Shown: in pieces, positions 1 through 7,076 of the stretch
How positions within the stretch are numbered: position 1 is the stretch's first letter
Layout: the number at the start of each line of letters is the position of its first letter
Source: an uncultured Parvularculaceae bacterium
GTDB lineage: Bacteria; Pseudomonadota; Alphaproteobacteria; Caulobacterales; Parvularculaceae
Length of the DNA: 64,000 nt
Reading direction: 5' to 3'
NCBI GenBank assembly: GCA_947259375.1
Contig: CAMYLZ010000012.1
Span: 1-64,000, forward strand
The notes under the pieces: model-generated
The model's database searches: none
What the model saw: only the letters and a program-made list of their open reading frames with translations
Told to the model about the DNA's origin: nothing
Made by a program: the position numbers and the translations under genes

Positions 1-545
1 GCATTGTCAGGCGCCGGCCCTGCGGCCGGCGCTGCGGGTTGCGTTGTCGGCGCGGGATCTGTCGGCGCTGGGTCTGCTGGTGCAGGACCCGCCGGTGCAG
101 GCGCCGGTGACGCTGCCGGCGTATCAGGCGGGCCGCCTGAAGGCGCCGCCGGCGCTTCCCCGCCGTCAGCAGGGCCGCTGTCATTGCCGAAAACGCCGCC
201 GTCGCCAAAGACGCCGCTATCGCCGATCGGCTCGCCGTCATCGCCGAACACGCCATCGTCGCCCAACACCCCTTCATCGCCGAACAGCCCGCCATCGGGG
301 ATCGGCGTGACGGTGGGCGGCGCAACGATCACACTGATATTGAACACCAACCCGCCGACGGTGAAACCGCCGCGCGCCTTGCTGAGTTGTTCATTGCTCA
401 GCGGCGCTTCTTCAAGCTGAAGCAACCCGCCTGACGAAAGCAGTTCGCTGGCGATCGCCGCCGCGGTTTCTTCCGCATAAGCGGCGTTCAAAGACAATAT
501 GCTCGCTGCGCTAGCGAAACTGACGGTCTTTTTGATGCAGAACAT
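1..545 (-). CDS. Secreted protein with double-glycine motif, Gly/Asp and Pro/Ala rich (3' end beyond window)
   Basis: The frame is open from the ATG at 545 to the left edge, so at least 181 residues are encoded and the C-terminus is missing. Residues 1-24 look like a Sec signal peptide (FCIKKTVSFAS..., cut after AYA). About 35 residues later comes LSNEQLSKARGG, which fits the leader consensus cut by C39 peptidases: Leu -12, Ser -11, Leu -7, Ala -4, Gly-Gly. After the motif come a short hydrophobic stretch (VFNISVIVAP), Gly-Asp-rich imperfect repeats (GDDGVFGDDGE type) and a Pro-Ala-rich region. The ATG overlaps the stop of the upstream C39 peptidase gene (TGATG), so the two are probably translationally coupled. 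The motif suggests that this protein is a substrate of that peptidase. I do not recognise a named family. Confidence 0.75.
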   Translation of the reverse strand, partial: MFCIKKTVSFASAASILSLNAAYAEETAAAIASELLSSGGLLQLEEAPLSNEQLSKARGGFTVGGLVFNISVIVAPPTVTPIPDGGLFGDEGVLGDDGVFGDDGEPIGDSGVFGDGGVFGNDSGPADGGEAPAAPSGGPPDTPAASPAPAPAGPAPADPAPTDPAPTTQPAAPAAGPAPDN

Positions 546-1315
546 CACTGGCCCTCCACGAGCGCTCCAATTGTTGTTCCTGAAAAAGACGGCCGCGTCT
601 GATGCAAATACAAGGACTGAAGCGGCTCATCATCCACGGCCCGGTCATGCGGCGATGACGGCGCATAGCGCCAATCCTCGACGCTGTTGAAATGCGCTTT
701 CCCGACCAGCAATTCCGACCGGATAAACAGGACGGTCCCGTCCCAGCGCTTTTCAAAAATCTTTCGCGGCACCGCGGCGACGCCGGTCGACGGATCGCCG
801 ACAAGCACCACATCGCGCGTAATGCCTTTGATGACCACAAAATGCTTGTAGCCGCGCACTTCGATCAGCGCGATGCCAGGCACGCCGATTTCCTGAATGC
901 GATCGAGCGTCAGGCTGAAACCATCCGCCTTCAGACCAGTGCTTTCAAGATAACGCTTCATTTCGAGAAGGGAAAAACCCAACTGACGAATGCGATCCTT
1001 TTCGCCAACCTTCCACATAGCGCGGAAAGCATCCGCTTCAGTGGTTGGGCGCTGATAATGATGGGTGAGAAGCGTCGCCAGCGCGGCCGAACCGCAACTG
1101 AAATCATACTGCTGCCTGATAACGGTCGCGAATTTGCGCTCCGCCATGCTTTCCACATCGAGCCGCGCCATCGCGCCGCCGGTATTGATATGAACGTCGC
1201 CTGCCCGCGCGCCCGCGGCGACGGCAAGAACGCCGATTGCGGCAATCGCCGGCGCCAGCGGCGCCAAATATCCGCGCCAGCTTCGCCAGTCCAAAAAACA
1301 GCTCACTAAACTCAC
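545..1315 (-). CDS. Periplasmic C39-family cysteine peptidase (FapD-like)
   Basis: A cysteine peptidase of the bacteriocin-processing C39 fold, without the ABC-transporter domains of bacteriocin exporters. From the GTG at 1315 the catalytic residues are Cys74 (QQYDFSCGSAAL), His158 (GYKHFVVIKG) and Asp174 (VGDPSTG). The N-terminus is hydrophobic (APAIAAIGVLAVAAGARA), which fits an exported or membrane-anchored enzyme acting in the periplasm. A GTG at 1333 would add six residues, but the GTG at 1315 has a GGGGA ribosome site at good distance. Small proteins with double-glycine motifs lie on both sides, and a FapF-like porin lies across the locus. FapD of the Pseudomonas Fap system is a C39-like protein, so processing or licensing of exported fibre subunits is the likely role. 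That role is inferred. Confidence 0.85.
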   Translation of the reverse strand: MSLVSCFLDWRSWRGYLAPLAPAIAAIGVLAVAAGARAGDVHINTGGAMARLDVESMAERKFATVIRQQYDFSCGSAALATLLTHHYQRPTTEADAFRAMWKVGEKDRIRQLGFSLLEMKRYLESTGLKADGFSLTLDRIQEIGVPGIALIEVRGYKHFVVIKGITRDVVLVGDPSTGVAAVPRKIFEKRWDGTVLFIRSELLVGKAHFNSVEDWRYAPSSPHDRAVDDEPLQSLYLHQTRPSFSGTTIGALVEGQ

Positions 1316-1348
1316 GATGAAAATCCCCGACACTACGATTGAAACATA

Positions 1349-1771
1349 TTACGGCTGAGCCGGCACAGGCCCGCCGCCCTGCAAGAAGACATTGAGATTG
1401 ACAATGCTCTGCATGATGACGCCATTGCCGGTATTGTTGAACACCGTCGTGATGCCGCCATTGTCCGAGATGACATTGTGCGCAATATCTCCGTTGACGG
1501 AGTTTGTCGTCGTCACGCCTTCGACATGCGCCCCGTTCTCTCCGACATTGGCGCCGAGATTGGAGATATCAATGGCGGTATGCGAGCCGCCTGAGGCCGA
1601 GGCCATCGCCGTTTCATCAAGCGACGCCAGCCCTCCGAACAGGTCATCGTTTTCGGTCGGGACAGTTTCCGCATAAGCCGCGAGCTGTTGGTCGCGCTGC
1701 GCGGTATCTAGACTTGGGTCGGTGGCGATAAGTACCGGGGTGATAAACAAACCCCACGCGCTCATACCCAT
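1349..1771 (-). CDS. Small secreted protein with double-glycine leader and fibre-like C-terminal motif
   Basis: The product has 140 residues. The first about 62 residues end in LDETAMASASGG, a bacteriocin-type double-glycine motif (Leu -12, Met -7, Ala -4, Gly-Gly). Cleavage there by the neighbouring C39 peptidase would leave a mature part of about 78 residues, rich in Asn, Gly, Val and Ile. Its C-terminus (NTGNGVIMQSIVNLNVFL) matches the end of the large upstream repeat protein (NTGAGIFQNSQNVNVG), so the two appear to share a C-terminal module. In Pseudomonas, minor Fap subunits similarly resemble the major one. The start has a strong AGGGGG site 8-9 bases upstream. A Sec signal is not obvious. 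Probable minor fibre subunit or nucleator, by inference only. Confidence 0.75.
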   Translation of the reverse strand: MGMSAWGLFITPVLIATDPSLDTAQRDQQLAAYAETVPTENDDLFGGLASLDETAMASASGGSHTAIDISNLGANVGENGAHVEGVTTTNSVNGDIAHNVISDNGGITTVFNNTGNGVIMQSIVNLNVFLQGGGPVPAQP

Positions 1772-3587: not shown

Positions 3588-3604
3588 ATGCAACGCCTGT
3601 GCCA
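3588..3604 (-). promoter_or_regulatory. Sigma-54 (RpoN) promoter of the repeat-protein operon
   Basis: The minus strand reads TGGCAC-AGGCG-TTGCAT, the consensus -24/-12 element (TGGCAC-N5-TTGCA) with correct spacing. Transcription should start near 3577, giving a leader of about 105 nt before the ATG at 3470. A sigma-54 activator gene lies divergently 560 bp away. A small palindrome, GCGAGCGCTCGC (3504-3515), lies in the leader. Confidence 0.88.
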
Positions 3605-4161
3605 GAATGGGGCAGTTGCGGGAGAATTAAGGTTAAGCCTTTGTCACCAATAGCGGTTTTTCAGGTTTTCTGGGTCGTTACAGGACAATTCGATTGATTG
3701 TGCGTCGCGATATTTTGTGCAACTCATTGCACAGACGCGTTTCCTCCCTGGCGCCAAGCGCGCCGCTGCTGACGCTTGTTCAATATGCTTGCGAAGATTT
3801 GCGAATAAGTCTCGATACGGAATGCAGGAATATGCGCGGGGCGCGCATGAAACTGCTGGCGGCGCCGGATCCGCGGATTGCACCCCTCCGCGCGCCTCAA
3901 TCAGCGGCTGCAAAAAACCCTCCGAATAGCGAATATTTCATGACAAAACCGGATTCTTGTTGATTATTGCGAACATTGTTCTAGCCTGTCCGAGGATACG
4001 CAGTTGCTGTTGTGTGGGAGAGAGCGCTGCGCCAGATCTTGTATCTGATGCAGCGTTGACAGGACGTCGCGTAGTTCTGTGAAGGTGCGGTTTTCGCCGC
4101 TCTTCGCGTTTCTTTCTCCTTTCCGACATCATCGTGTTCCAACGTGCTTTGGGGGAAGCAA
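3605..4161. other. 557-bp divergent control region without a convincing gene
   Basis: This lies between the sigma-54 promoter and the activator gene. It holds the inverted repeat at 3716-3733. Short open frames on both strands lack ribosome sites and family features, so I annotate none. No -24/-12 element with good -12 bases was found for the plus-strand activator gene, and its promoter is not identified. Confidence 0.5.
3716..3733. promoter_or_regulatory. Candidate upstream activator site for the sigma-54 promoter
   Basis: A perfect inverted repeat, TGTGCAA-CTCA-TTGCACA, has 7-base arms and is centred about 120 bp upstream of the -24 box. That is the usual distance for an enhancer-binding protein. 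A lone TGTGC half-site is at 3699-3703, and a direct repeat TTGCGAA-gat-TTGCGAA is at 3789-3805. The assignment to the neighbouring activator is inferred. Confidence 0.5.
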
Positions 4162-5358
4162 ATGGACAATGACGAGCACGACGGCTTGGGCCGTTCGTCC
4201 GCTATCGGACATGAATATGCCAGTAGCGGGCATTCATATGAAACATACATGCCGACAAACGTCGGCAATGTCGCGCGCGATATATCGACAGCGATCCCGG
4301 CCCCGCCGATCAAGGTCGCCCGGCAAGCGCGCGACCGGAGCCGCGTCAAGACTGACAAAAACGGCGCTGCGGCGCCGATTGTCGGCTCGAGCGCCGCCGC
4401 GGTAAAGTTGCGCGAATTGATTGCGCTTTATGCGGACTGCGACGCGCCAGTGCTGATCACCGGCGAGACCGGGGTCGGCAAGGAGCTTGTCGCGCGTCAG
4501 TTGCACGCCCTTTCCCGCCGCGCTGAAGCGGCGTTCGCGCCGCTGAACATCGCCGCCATCCCGGAATCGCTCGCCGCGTCGGAATTGTTCGGTCATGCGC
4601 GCGGCGCCTTTACCGGCGCCGTCGCCGAACATGAAGGCGCTATCGCGCAAGCCGATGGCGGCGTGTTGTTTCTCGATGAAATCGGCGACATGCCGCTTTC
4701 CGTCCAAACGCATCTCTTGCGCGTGCTTGAAGACGGCATGGTGACGAAGGTCGGCGGCAAGTCAGCCTTCAGGGCTGATTTCAGGCTCATTACCGCCACC
4801 AATATTCCATTGCGCGAACAAGTCAGCGCGGACCGGTTTCGGCAAGACCTTTATTACCGCGTCAATGTACTGGCCATCGATGTGCCGCCCTTGCGTGCGC
4901 GCGGCGACGATGTGATCGAAATCGCAGAATCGATGCTCGCCGGCCCCGCACGCGACGTCCGGCCCGGCATGCAACTGACGCCCAAGGCGGCGGACCGGCT
5001 GCGCGGATACGGCTTTCCCGGCAATATCCGCGAGCTGCGCAATATCCTCTCGCGCGCCGCCGTACACGCGCGCGGCGACGACATCCTGCCGGAGCATATT
5101 CAGTTCGACCGCGCCGAATGCGGCGGGCGCGCGGACCGCGAGGCGTTTGACATCGACGACGCCAAGAACCTGGTTGGCCGTTTCATCATGATGAAGGCGC
5201 TTTATGCGTGCGGCGGCAATGTCACCAAGGCCGCGTCCCTGACAGGCCGTTCCAGAGGCACGCTCCACAATCTGAAAAAAAGCATCGAAGGCGAAGATTT
5301 CACATCCGCCTTTCACAGCGCATGCACGCAAATGAAGGCTCTGCTCGAAGGCTGCTGA
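4162..5358 (+). CDS. Sigma-54-dependent transcriptional activator without receiver domain
   Basis: An AAA+ enhancer-binding protein of 398 residues that would remodel sigma-54 RNA polymerase. Visible motifs are Walker A GETGVGKE (101-108), the sigma-54 contact loop GAFTGA (148-153), Walker B GGVLFLDEIG (166-175), the arginine-finger region (RFRQDLYYRVNV) and a C-terminal Fis-type helix-turn-helix (GGNVTKAASLTGRSRGTLHN, about 351-370). The first about 75 residues are not a response-regulator receiver; they look disordered, so control is by level or by a partner. The start at 4162 has a GGGGGAAG site, and an in-frame start 18 bases earlier is less well placed. The gene precedes the porin gene by 17 bp and faces the sigma-54 promoter of the repeat-protein operon, its likely target. 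Confidence 0.9.
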   Translation: MDNDEHDGLGRSSAIGHEYASSGHSYETYMPTNVGNVARDISTAIPAPPIKVARQARDRSRVKTDKNGAAAPIVGSSAAAVKLRELIALYADCDAPVLITGETGVGKELVARQLHALSRRAEAAFAPLNIAAIPESLAASELFGHARGAFTGAVAEHEGAIAQADGGVLFLDEIGDMPLSVQTHLLRVLEDGMVTKVGGKSAFRADFRLITATNIPLREQVSADRFRQDLYYRVNVLAIDVPPLRARGDDVIEIAESMLAGPARDVRPGMQLTPKAADRLRGYGFPGNIRELRNILSRAAVHARGDDILPEHIQFDRAECGGRADREAFDIDDAKNLVGRFIMMKALYACGGNVTKAASLTGRSRGTLHNLKKSIEGEDFTSAFHSACTQMKALLEGC

Positions 5359-5375
5359 CCAATAGGGGGAATAAT

Positions 5376-7076
5376 ATGAAAAAAGCACTGTTTTACGCGA
5401 CGGCCGCCGCCGCCCTTGCCGCCGCCAGCGGGGCCCAGGCGGCGGATCAGGATCCGGCGGTGACGGACGCGCCCGCCGGCACCCAGATCATGCCGAAACC
5501 GACGATGGAAGAAGACCTGGTCTATCTCAAGGACATTGTCGCCCTGCAAACGCTTCGCCTCGACGAGGCTGAAGAGCTGATCGAGAAACAAAACACCCTG
5601 ATTGAAGCGCAGGCCCGCCAGCTTGAAGCACTTGCGGCCTCAATGTCGGCAATTGGCGCACCGGCCCTCGCCGCAGCAGCGACAGCAGCGCCCGGCGCCT
5701 ATCAGGTCAAAAGCGGCGATACGCTGTCGTCCATCGCGCGCGCCAACAACACCACCATCGCCGCGCTGGCGGAAGCCAATAATCTCACCTCGCCTTATCC
5801 GTTAAGCGTTGGCGATATGCTGGTCATTCCCGGCGCTGCGGCGATGCAGCCGCGCATCGCCCGCGCGCCGGCGCCGGCCGCAACACCGACACAAAAAATC
5901 CAGCAGCAACCGCAGCCAGGCGCGCCAGCGCCGCAGCCGGTGCAAACCGCGCAAACCACCCCGCAACCGCAACAGCCGGGCAGCGGCGACCGCCTGCCGA
6001 CAGAGGTCGGGGTGCGTCCCGAGGACGAAAATGAGCGTCCCTATCTTGCGATCTTCTCCGATGTCGGCGGCATCCTGACGCCGAAAGGCACCCTGTTCGT
6101 CGAACCGTCTGTTGAATACACCGTGTCATCCGACAATCGATTCTTCTTCCAGGGGATTGAGATTTTCGACGCCATCCTGATCGGCGCCATCGAGGCGACC
6201 GACAGCAACCGTCAGGCGCTGACCGAAAGCATCGGCGCGCGCTATGGCCTTACCAATCGGATCGAAATTGACGGGCGGATCTCTTACGTCTCACGCAAGG
6301 ACCGGGTCACCGGGGTGGCGATCGACAGCTCCACCGCCAGCGAGCGCAAGCTTGGCGGTTACGGCATCGGCGACGCGGAATTCGGCATCCATTATCAACT
6401 CAATAATGGCCGCAACTTTCCGTATACGATTCTTAATCTTCGAGCCAAGGCGCCGACCGGCGACGGCCCGTTCGATGTCGAACGCGACGTCAACACCGGC
6501 ATCGAAACGGAGCTGGCGCAAGGTTCAGGTTTCTGGACGCTGGAGCCGAGCCTGACCTTTATTCTCGCCAGCGACCCGGCCTCGCTCTATGCTAATTTCG
6601 GCTATCAAAAAAACATGTCGACCTCGCCGAACCAAGTGTTGTTCGACACGGATACGGCGACGCAAACCTTGCGAACATTTGATCCTGGCGATGCGCTGCG
6701 CACCAGTATCGGCGTCGGCCTGTCGCTCAATGAACGCCTGTCGTTGAATTTCGGTTACGACCAGAGTTATTTCTTCCGCTCTGAAAGCGCATTTGAACTC
6801 ATCACTCGCGAGCCGATTTTCCTGCCCGATGACGGCGACCCGACCACGCCGCTGGTGCAGGCGACCGATGCAGCCGGCGCGCTCCTCTTTGACCCCGCAA
6901 TGACGAGCTTCCCGAGAACGCGCACCAACACGGCGACGGTGGGCTCATTCCTGTTTGGCGGTTCCTATGCCGTCAATGACCGCTTACGGATCAATCTCAA
7001 TGGCGCGATCGGCGCCACGGACGAGGCGCCGGATGCGCGGATTTCGCTGCGCGCGCAATACAAGCTGTTCGATTAA
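5376..7076 (+). CDS. Outer-membrane beta-barrel with coiled coil and LysM domain (FapF-like)
   Basis: The product has 566 residues. It has a Sec signal (1-22, cut after AQA), a coiled coil (about 43-92, LKDIVALQTLRLDEAEELIEKQ), a LysM peptidoglycan-binding domain (about 109-152, YQVKSGDTLSSIARANNTTI), a Pro/Gln-rich linker (about 155-215), then about 340 residues of alternating beta strands typical of a transporter barrel. FapF, the Pseudomonas amyloid exporter, has the same order of signal, coiled coil and 12-strand barrel; the LysM insertion is an addition. It is co-transcribed with the sigma-54 activator (17-bp gap, AGGGGGA site). The likely role is a trimeric pore that secretes the neighbouring fibre subunits and is anchored to the cell wall. 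The homology is judged by architecture only. Confidence 0.75.
   Translation: MKKALFYATAAAALAAASGAQAADQDPAVTDAPAGTQIMPKPTMEEDLVYLKDIVALQTLRLDEAEELIEKQNTLIEAQARQLEALAASMSAIGAPALAAAATAAPGAYQVKSGDTLSSIARANNTTIAALAEANNLTSPYPLSVGDMLVIPGAAAMQPRIARAPAPAATPTQKIQQQPQPGAPAPQPVQTAQTTPQPQQPGSGDRLPTEVGVRPEDENERPYLAIFSDVGGILTPKGTLFVEPSVEYTVSSDNRFFFQGIEIFDAILIGAIEATDSNRQALTESIGARYGLTNRIEIDGRISYVSRKDRVTGVAIDSSTASERKLGGYGIGDAEFGIHYQLNNGRNFPYTILNLRAKAPTGDGPFDVERDVNTGIETELAQGSGFWTLEPSLTFILASDPASLYANFGYQKNMSTSPNQVLFDTDTATQTLRTFDPGDALRTSIGVGLSLNERLSLNFGYDQSYFFRSESAFELITREPIFLPDDGDPTTPLVQATDAAGALLFDPAMTSFPRTRTNTATVGSFLFGGSYAVNDRLRINLNGAIGATDEAPDARISLRAQYKLFD

Follow-up and report, generated by a model that had tools for sequence, protein, structure and literature searches.

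The window, a stretch of 64,000 nucleotides from an uncultured Parvularculaceae bacterium, carries a Fap-like functional-amyloid secretion cluster in which a stand-alone C39 peptidase is flanked by two proteins, termed gg1 (upstream) and gg2 (downstream), each with a leader of the double-glycine type. It is probable that both proteins are exported by Sec and then relieved of this second leader by the C39 peptidase in the periplasm, and that the same enzyme–leader pair operates in canonical Fap systems. What we infer is the cleavage itself, its precise bond and its role in secretion; the genes, the motifs with their conservation and linkage, and the catalytic residues were all observed directly.

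The minus-strand genes are transcribed in the order DNS-repeat protein, gg1, C39 peptidase and gg2, with the activator and barrel genes divergent (Table 1). The assignment as a Fap-like cluster, with gg2 in the FapE position, follows from matches to the FapD/FilB and FapF/FilC models, those to FapD, FilB and FapF lying below the cut-offs; the peptidase also scores 108 bits against FilB, and the barrel protein 37 bits against FilC. The LysM domain of the latter is placed between an N-terminal helix region and the barrel. The DNS-repeat protein is the probable major fibre subunit, with a FapC-like role. In gg2 a Sec signal is followed by the C39-type leader and a mature part with a proline/alanine/glycine-rich linker. 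The window begins at the contig end, so that its edge is also the contig edge, and contig C16 ends in an open frame of 228 residues (L124) with homology to the C-terminal part of gg2 in a close relative. Judged by this homology, the fragment is probably the remainder of gg2, which would mean that the assembly broke inside the low-complexity proline/alanine-rich linker.

Table 1. Features of the Fap-like cluster in the window.
Feature	Position (nt)	Strand	Evidence or remark
gg2, FapE-position protein (N-terminal 182 aa)	3..548	-	open at window edge
gg2 leader LSNEQLSKARGG	366-401 (residues 50-61)	-	predicted C39 cut after GG, before FTVGG
C39 peptidase, stand-alone, FapD-like, N-terminal signal peptide	545..1333	-	Pfam 5e-21; NF058616 152 bits (cut-off 330); invariant residues; fold
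gg1, upstream-family protein, 140 aa	1349..1771	-	mature part resembles C-terminal domain of the repeat protein
gg1 leader LDETAMASASGG	1586-1621 (residues 51-62)	-	predicted C39 cut after GG, before SHTAID
DNS-repeat secreted protein, 514 residues	1926..3470	-	no Pfam or NCBIfam match; no C39 leader seen
Sigma-54 (-24/-12) promoter, exact match TGGCACAGGCGTTGCA	3589..3604	-	before the minus-strand cluster
Sigma-54-dependent activator without receiver domain	4144..5358	+	Sigma54_activat 1.6e-62
FapF-like outer-membrane barrel with LysM domain	5370..7076	+	NF058560 122 bits (cut-off 700); LysM 3e-16

A conserved sigma-54 promoter precedes the repeat gene, and the sigma-54 activator is encoded by a neighbouring gene. 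Of 66 relatives, 29 have a site with at most one mismatch at the corresponding place, as against none of the 66 when the orientation is reversed and 6% among random stretches; the count of sigma-54 matches in the window, with one mismatch allowed, is not beyond chance.

The original prediction of a peptidase with Cys-His-Asp residues and no ABC exporter was borne out. The protein of 262 residues consists of the peptidase only, with no ABC domain, and is thus not a fused PCAT bacteriocin exporter; Cys80, His164 and Asp180, together with Gln74 (window numbering), are invariant in 110 of 110 sequences. Family score (Pfam Peptidase_C39, PF03412), catalytic residues and fold agree in placing it among the C39 peptidases, and it is the sole C39 match in the genome assembly. 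An alignment-based model (pLDDT 82) found its best structural matches in the peptidase domains of PCAT1, ComA and LahT, among them 6v9z and 6mpz, which were solved with substrate or leader peptide bound; 6mpz is also the top PDB match by sequence. An alignment-free model (pLDDT 35) was set aside. In the peptidase tree, canonical FapD (20 rows) and the window clade (90 rows) are separated with a support of 100, the window peptidase belonging to the sister clade. Within the canonical clade the downstream -1 residue is always R/K, and the upstream protein is absent. The peptidase and gg2 have ordinary Sec signals; the Sec signal of gg1 is atypical, since its N-terminus is hydrophobic and lacks basic residues.

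The leaders were followed through 110 loci, comprising 80 fetched peptidase relatives, 29 loci that the FapD model retrieved across the phylum and the window's own. A leader is present in the downstream neighbour in all 110. The simple pattern [LIV]x4[LM]xxxR[GA][GRK] was found in this neighbour in 84 of them, and the remaining 26 contain a downstream site of the same form, in most cases better than any other in the locus. Many loci escape a strict GG pattern and were recovered by the profile. When approximately 13,400 windows per locus were ranked in six-frame scans using leave-cluster-out profiles, the downstream site came first in 94 and among the top three in all 110 loci, compared with 0 and 7 of 110 for the same zone on the opposite strand. 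In the non-redundant set, the downstream leader has L/M at -7 and G/A at -2 without exception, a hydrophobic residue at -12 in 94%, R at -3 in 94%, and at -1 either G (77%) or R/K (18%). The family is also strongly conserved immediately after the site. In six gammaproteobacterial loci (L010, L011, L013, L016, L024, L046) the FapE-like domain is C-terminal, preceded by a transmembrane segment at the N-terminus and by a long coiled coil, an architecture checked at full length in L010; the fused domain lies about 0.8-0.95 kb after the peptidase. These proteins carry a C39-type site at the junction, e.g. ADEQLSKMRAG↓IAFGDELNIAIG (the arrow marks the predicted cut here and below), and because the site falls between coiled coil and FapE-like domain, a cut would free the domain from its membrane anchor.

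The corresponding analysis of the upstream neighbour used a profile trained on downstream sites only, and covered the 87 non-canonical loci with enough upstream sequence; the upstream zone was defined relative to the peptidase match rather than the longest peptidase frame. The upstream site ranked first in 52, among the top three in 71 and among the top ten in 81 of the 87, whereas the opposite-strand control gave 1, 7 and 25, respectively. Likewise, 80 of 85 upstream proteins outscored their own shuffles at p ≤ 0.05. The upstream sites are weaker than the downstream ones and more variable at -1 and -3; -7 is L/M and -2 is G/A in 100%, and -1 is G in 42%, R/K in 52% and M in 7% (non-redundant). 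Neither gg1 nor two further representatives of its family gave a significant Pfam/NCBIfam match. In profile comparisons, the mature part of the upstream family matches the repeat protein's C-terminal domain (95.8%, E 8e-9). A faint C-terminal similarity also connects the upstream and downstream families (27.9% probability, E 6e-4), and the two may consequently not be fully independent. The idea that -2 changes in step in the two substrates was considered and dropped: the 14 loci with A in both proteins correspond to only 2-3 independent events on the tree, and the correlation is therefore given no significance.

Taken together, these alignments allow the original prediction on the leaders to be judged. 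Both LDETAMASASGG and LSNEQLSKARGG are present on either side of the peptidase as described and fit the double-glycine rule, with a hydrophobic -12, L/M at -7 and small residues at -2/-1. The alignment of homologues proposed at the time has now been run, and returned L/M at -7 in all non-redundant sites, a hydrophobic -12 in 93-94% over both families, and G/A at -2 always. The rule thus stood at -12, -7 and -2 and proved too narrow in demanding GG, as -1 may be R/K, M, A or T and -2 may be A. Homologues lacking GG beside the C39 gene, named as potential counter-evidence, do exist, but keep the rest of the leader. Ala at -4 is shared by both window proteins, whereas most downstream relatives have L/M, and Arg at -3, a further mark of the family sites, is not part of the original rule. 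The order suggested at the time, Sec export followed by GG-processing in the periplasm, finds support here.

Among 398 genomes, 36 matches to the downstream family and 18 to the upstream family were obtained, every one within 0.65 kb of a FapD-like gene. As the downstream model includes the leader, this links leader-bearing proteins to the peptidase and does not speak to the absence of leaderless homologues. Viewed from the peptidase, the downstream family lies beside 36 of 38 FapD-like genes; one exception (G322) has a weaker site, VDDDVLATQTGK↓Y, and the other (G070) has decayed: at L123 (G070:C10:549297-549954) a stop codon interrupts the upstream gene, the peptidase is shortened, and there is no downstream match. 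Elsewhere, L105 (G138:C11:1029040-1033105) carries a tandem duplication of all three genes, those of the upstream protein, the peptidase and the downstream protein. In G376, a genome from the window's own genus, the peptidase, upstream and downstream models had no match.

In Pseudomonas Fap, FapC secretion requires the active-site Cys of FapD; Rouse et al. (2017) noted that Fap proteins lack a canonical C39 sequence and that the target of FapD was unclear (PMC5557850). N-terminal peptides were absent from FapE alone, over about 70 residues in the published mass spectrometry, and cutting of FapE by FapD was suspected from this absence (PMC5557850). The FapD substrate was still called undetermined in a 2018 review (PMC6173800), and in 2025 FapD was "thought to" process FapE and FapF (PMC12822426). 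Eight loci in our set exceed the FapD cut-off, and the one Pseudomonas-type FapE tested scored 351 bits against the FapE model NF058559 (cut-off 250). Approximately 20 residues past its signal peptide, canonical FapE carries IELKDAEMAELRGR↓YVMPGRIVSFG; by sequence, it is the leader described above, but with Arg/Lys in place of its final Gly. The R/K at -1 is probably the reason why no canonical C39 site was recognised in the 2017 work, and the leader becomes recognisable because relatives in the window clade, which keep GG, serve as a bridge. The slightly altered tag in classical Pseudomonas Fap thus predicts the FapD substrate. The predicted site, at about residue 40, falls short of the ~70-residue peptide gap. 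No match to NF058559 was found for the 182 available residues of gg2, and outside the leader the mature gg2-type proteins have no significant profile homology to canonical FapE. As to the original suggestion that the window could identify the substrates of FapD-type peptidases, the association is complete in the sampled genomes, and FapE as a FapD substrate is not a new idea (PMC5557850). The literature searched on FapE/FapD cleavage, with subscription papers and preprints outside its coverage, contained no report of a FapE leader; the leader, its exact place and the second substrate family appear to be new.

The window shares with Pseudomonas FapABCDEF a Sec-exported stand-alone C39 peptidase adjoining a FapE-position protein with the same leader, a FapF-type pore and a repeat-rich fibre subunit. 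It differs in that none of peptidase, gg2 and pore reaches its NCBIfam equivalog cut-off, the FapF-like gene is divergent and includes LysM, the leaders end in GG rather than G-R/K, the peptidase is in a sister clade, and gg1 is an extra substrate-like protein. With the peptidase-containing ABC transporters PCAT1, ComA and LahT it has in common the C39 fold, the catalytic residues and the double-glycine leader rule; unlike these, the window peptidase has no ABC transporter and would act post-Sec in the periplasm, and Fap-like leaders usually have R at -3, with R/K tolerated at -1. In the putative pilus system Fil (FilA/DUF6160, FilB, FilC), a stand-alone C39 protein, FilB, similarly adjoins FilA with a leader-like segment, but the site ends in TGQ, FilA belongs to another family by models (PF19657), and no FapE-position leader protein was seen downstream. 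Four such loci (L113-L116), from Pseudomonas and one other genus, place upstream DUF6160/FilA-like proteins beside more distantly related FilB-like peptidases; the assignment to Pseudomonas is deduced from full-score Fap loci in the FilB-bearing genomes. A segment LxxxALxxVTGQ follows straight after the signal peptide (LKALDDSALADVTGQ↓AGISISG). From these four loci, with weak profile scores, FilA proteins seem to carry a third leader version, which is offered as a lead only.

The proposed sequence of events would begin with Sec export of gg1, gg2 and the peptidase, and signal peptidase would take off the first signal. The periplasmic FapD-like peptidase would bind the second leader in both proteins (hydrophobic -12, L/M -7, usually R -3, G/A -2) and cut after GG, yielding mature gg2 in the FapE position and mature gg1, a putative minor subunit with the C-terminal domain of the repeat protein; either could then pass the FapF-like pore or seed or anchor the fibre. 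Canonical Fap would use the same pair, with G-R/K at -2/-1 in FapE. The 110 downstream leaders, the upstream ranks, the complete linkage, the invariant catalytic residues, the C39 fold, the junction sites and the published observations on the FapD Cys and the FapE peptides (PMC5557850) count in favour of this mechanism. Against it count the frequent R/K and occasional M at -1, unusual for C39 enzymes, the atypical export signal of gg1, the possible non-independence of the families, the non-significant FapE homology and the ~70-residue gap. The exact bond is uncertain, since -1 varies and -2 does not. This pattern (always G/A at -2, but G, R, K, M, A or T at -1) would suit a variant with the cut shifted by one residue towards the N-terminus, to follow R-[G/A] (RG↓G, RG↓R, RA↓R), which would keep a small residue at P1 throughout; the spacing from -7 and -12, however, equals that of known double-glycine leaders, in which C39 peptidases cut after the second residue, and we regard the earlier cut as unlikely, if worth keeping in mind.

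It is less probable still that gg2 alone is cut, with the gg1 motif serving for docking or left over from shared ancestry. The absence of the upstream family from canonical Fap loci, its weaker sites with more variation at -1 and -3, and the faint C-terminus common to both families would fit such an arrangement. Nevertheless, the upstream family shares the invariant -7 and -2 positions and occurs solely beside FapD-like genes, and in Halomonas both proteins of the same clade have A at -2, although this represents a single evolutionary event. An uncut motif, recognised by the FapF pore or by a chaperone-like FapD, would agree with the strong conservation directly after the downstream site and with the C39-like domains of some type I systems, which solely bind substrates (PMC5557850, PMC6173800). 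Such a role is hard to reconcile with the catalytic residues retained in 110 of 110 peptidases, with the loss of secretion upon active-site mutation in the published assay (PMC5557850) and with the C39 spacing of the motif, and we consider it very improbable.

If both proteins are indeed processed by the peptidase, bacteriocin-type leader chemistry would be linked to amyloid secretion after Sec. Fap amyloid cannot be secreted without FapD, and the leader predicts to the residue where Pseudomonas FapE would be cut (LRG-R/K↓Y). It also probably accounts for FapE having escaped a search for GG, and brings in a putative second substrate family that had no model among the Pfam/NCBIfam entries tested. 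More broadly, and with the balance about even, periplasmic C39 peptidases may represent a general proteobacterial maturation route of Sec first and second leader later, serving three or more substrate families (FapE-like proteins, the gg1 family and FilA/DUF6160); secretion or fibre assembly would then be licensed once the second leader is gone, and the specificity would have drifted from GG to G-R/K.
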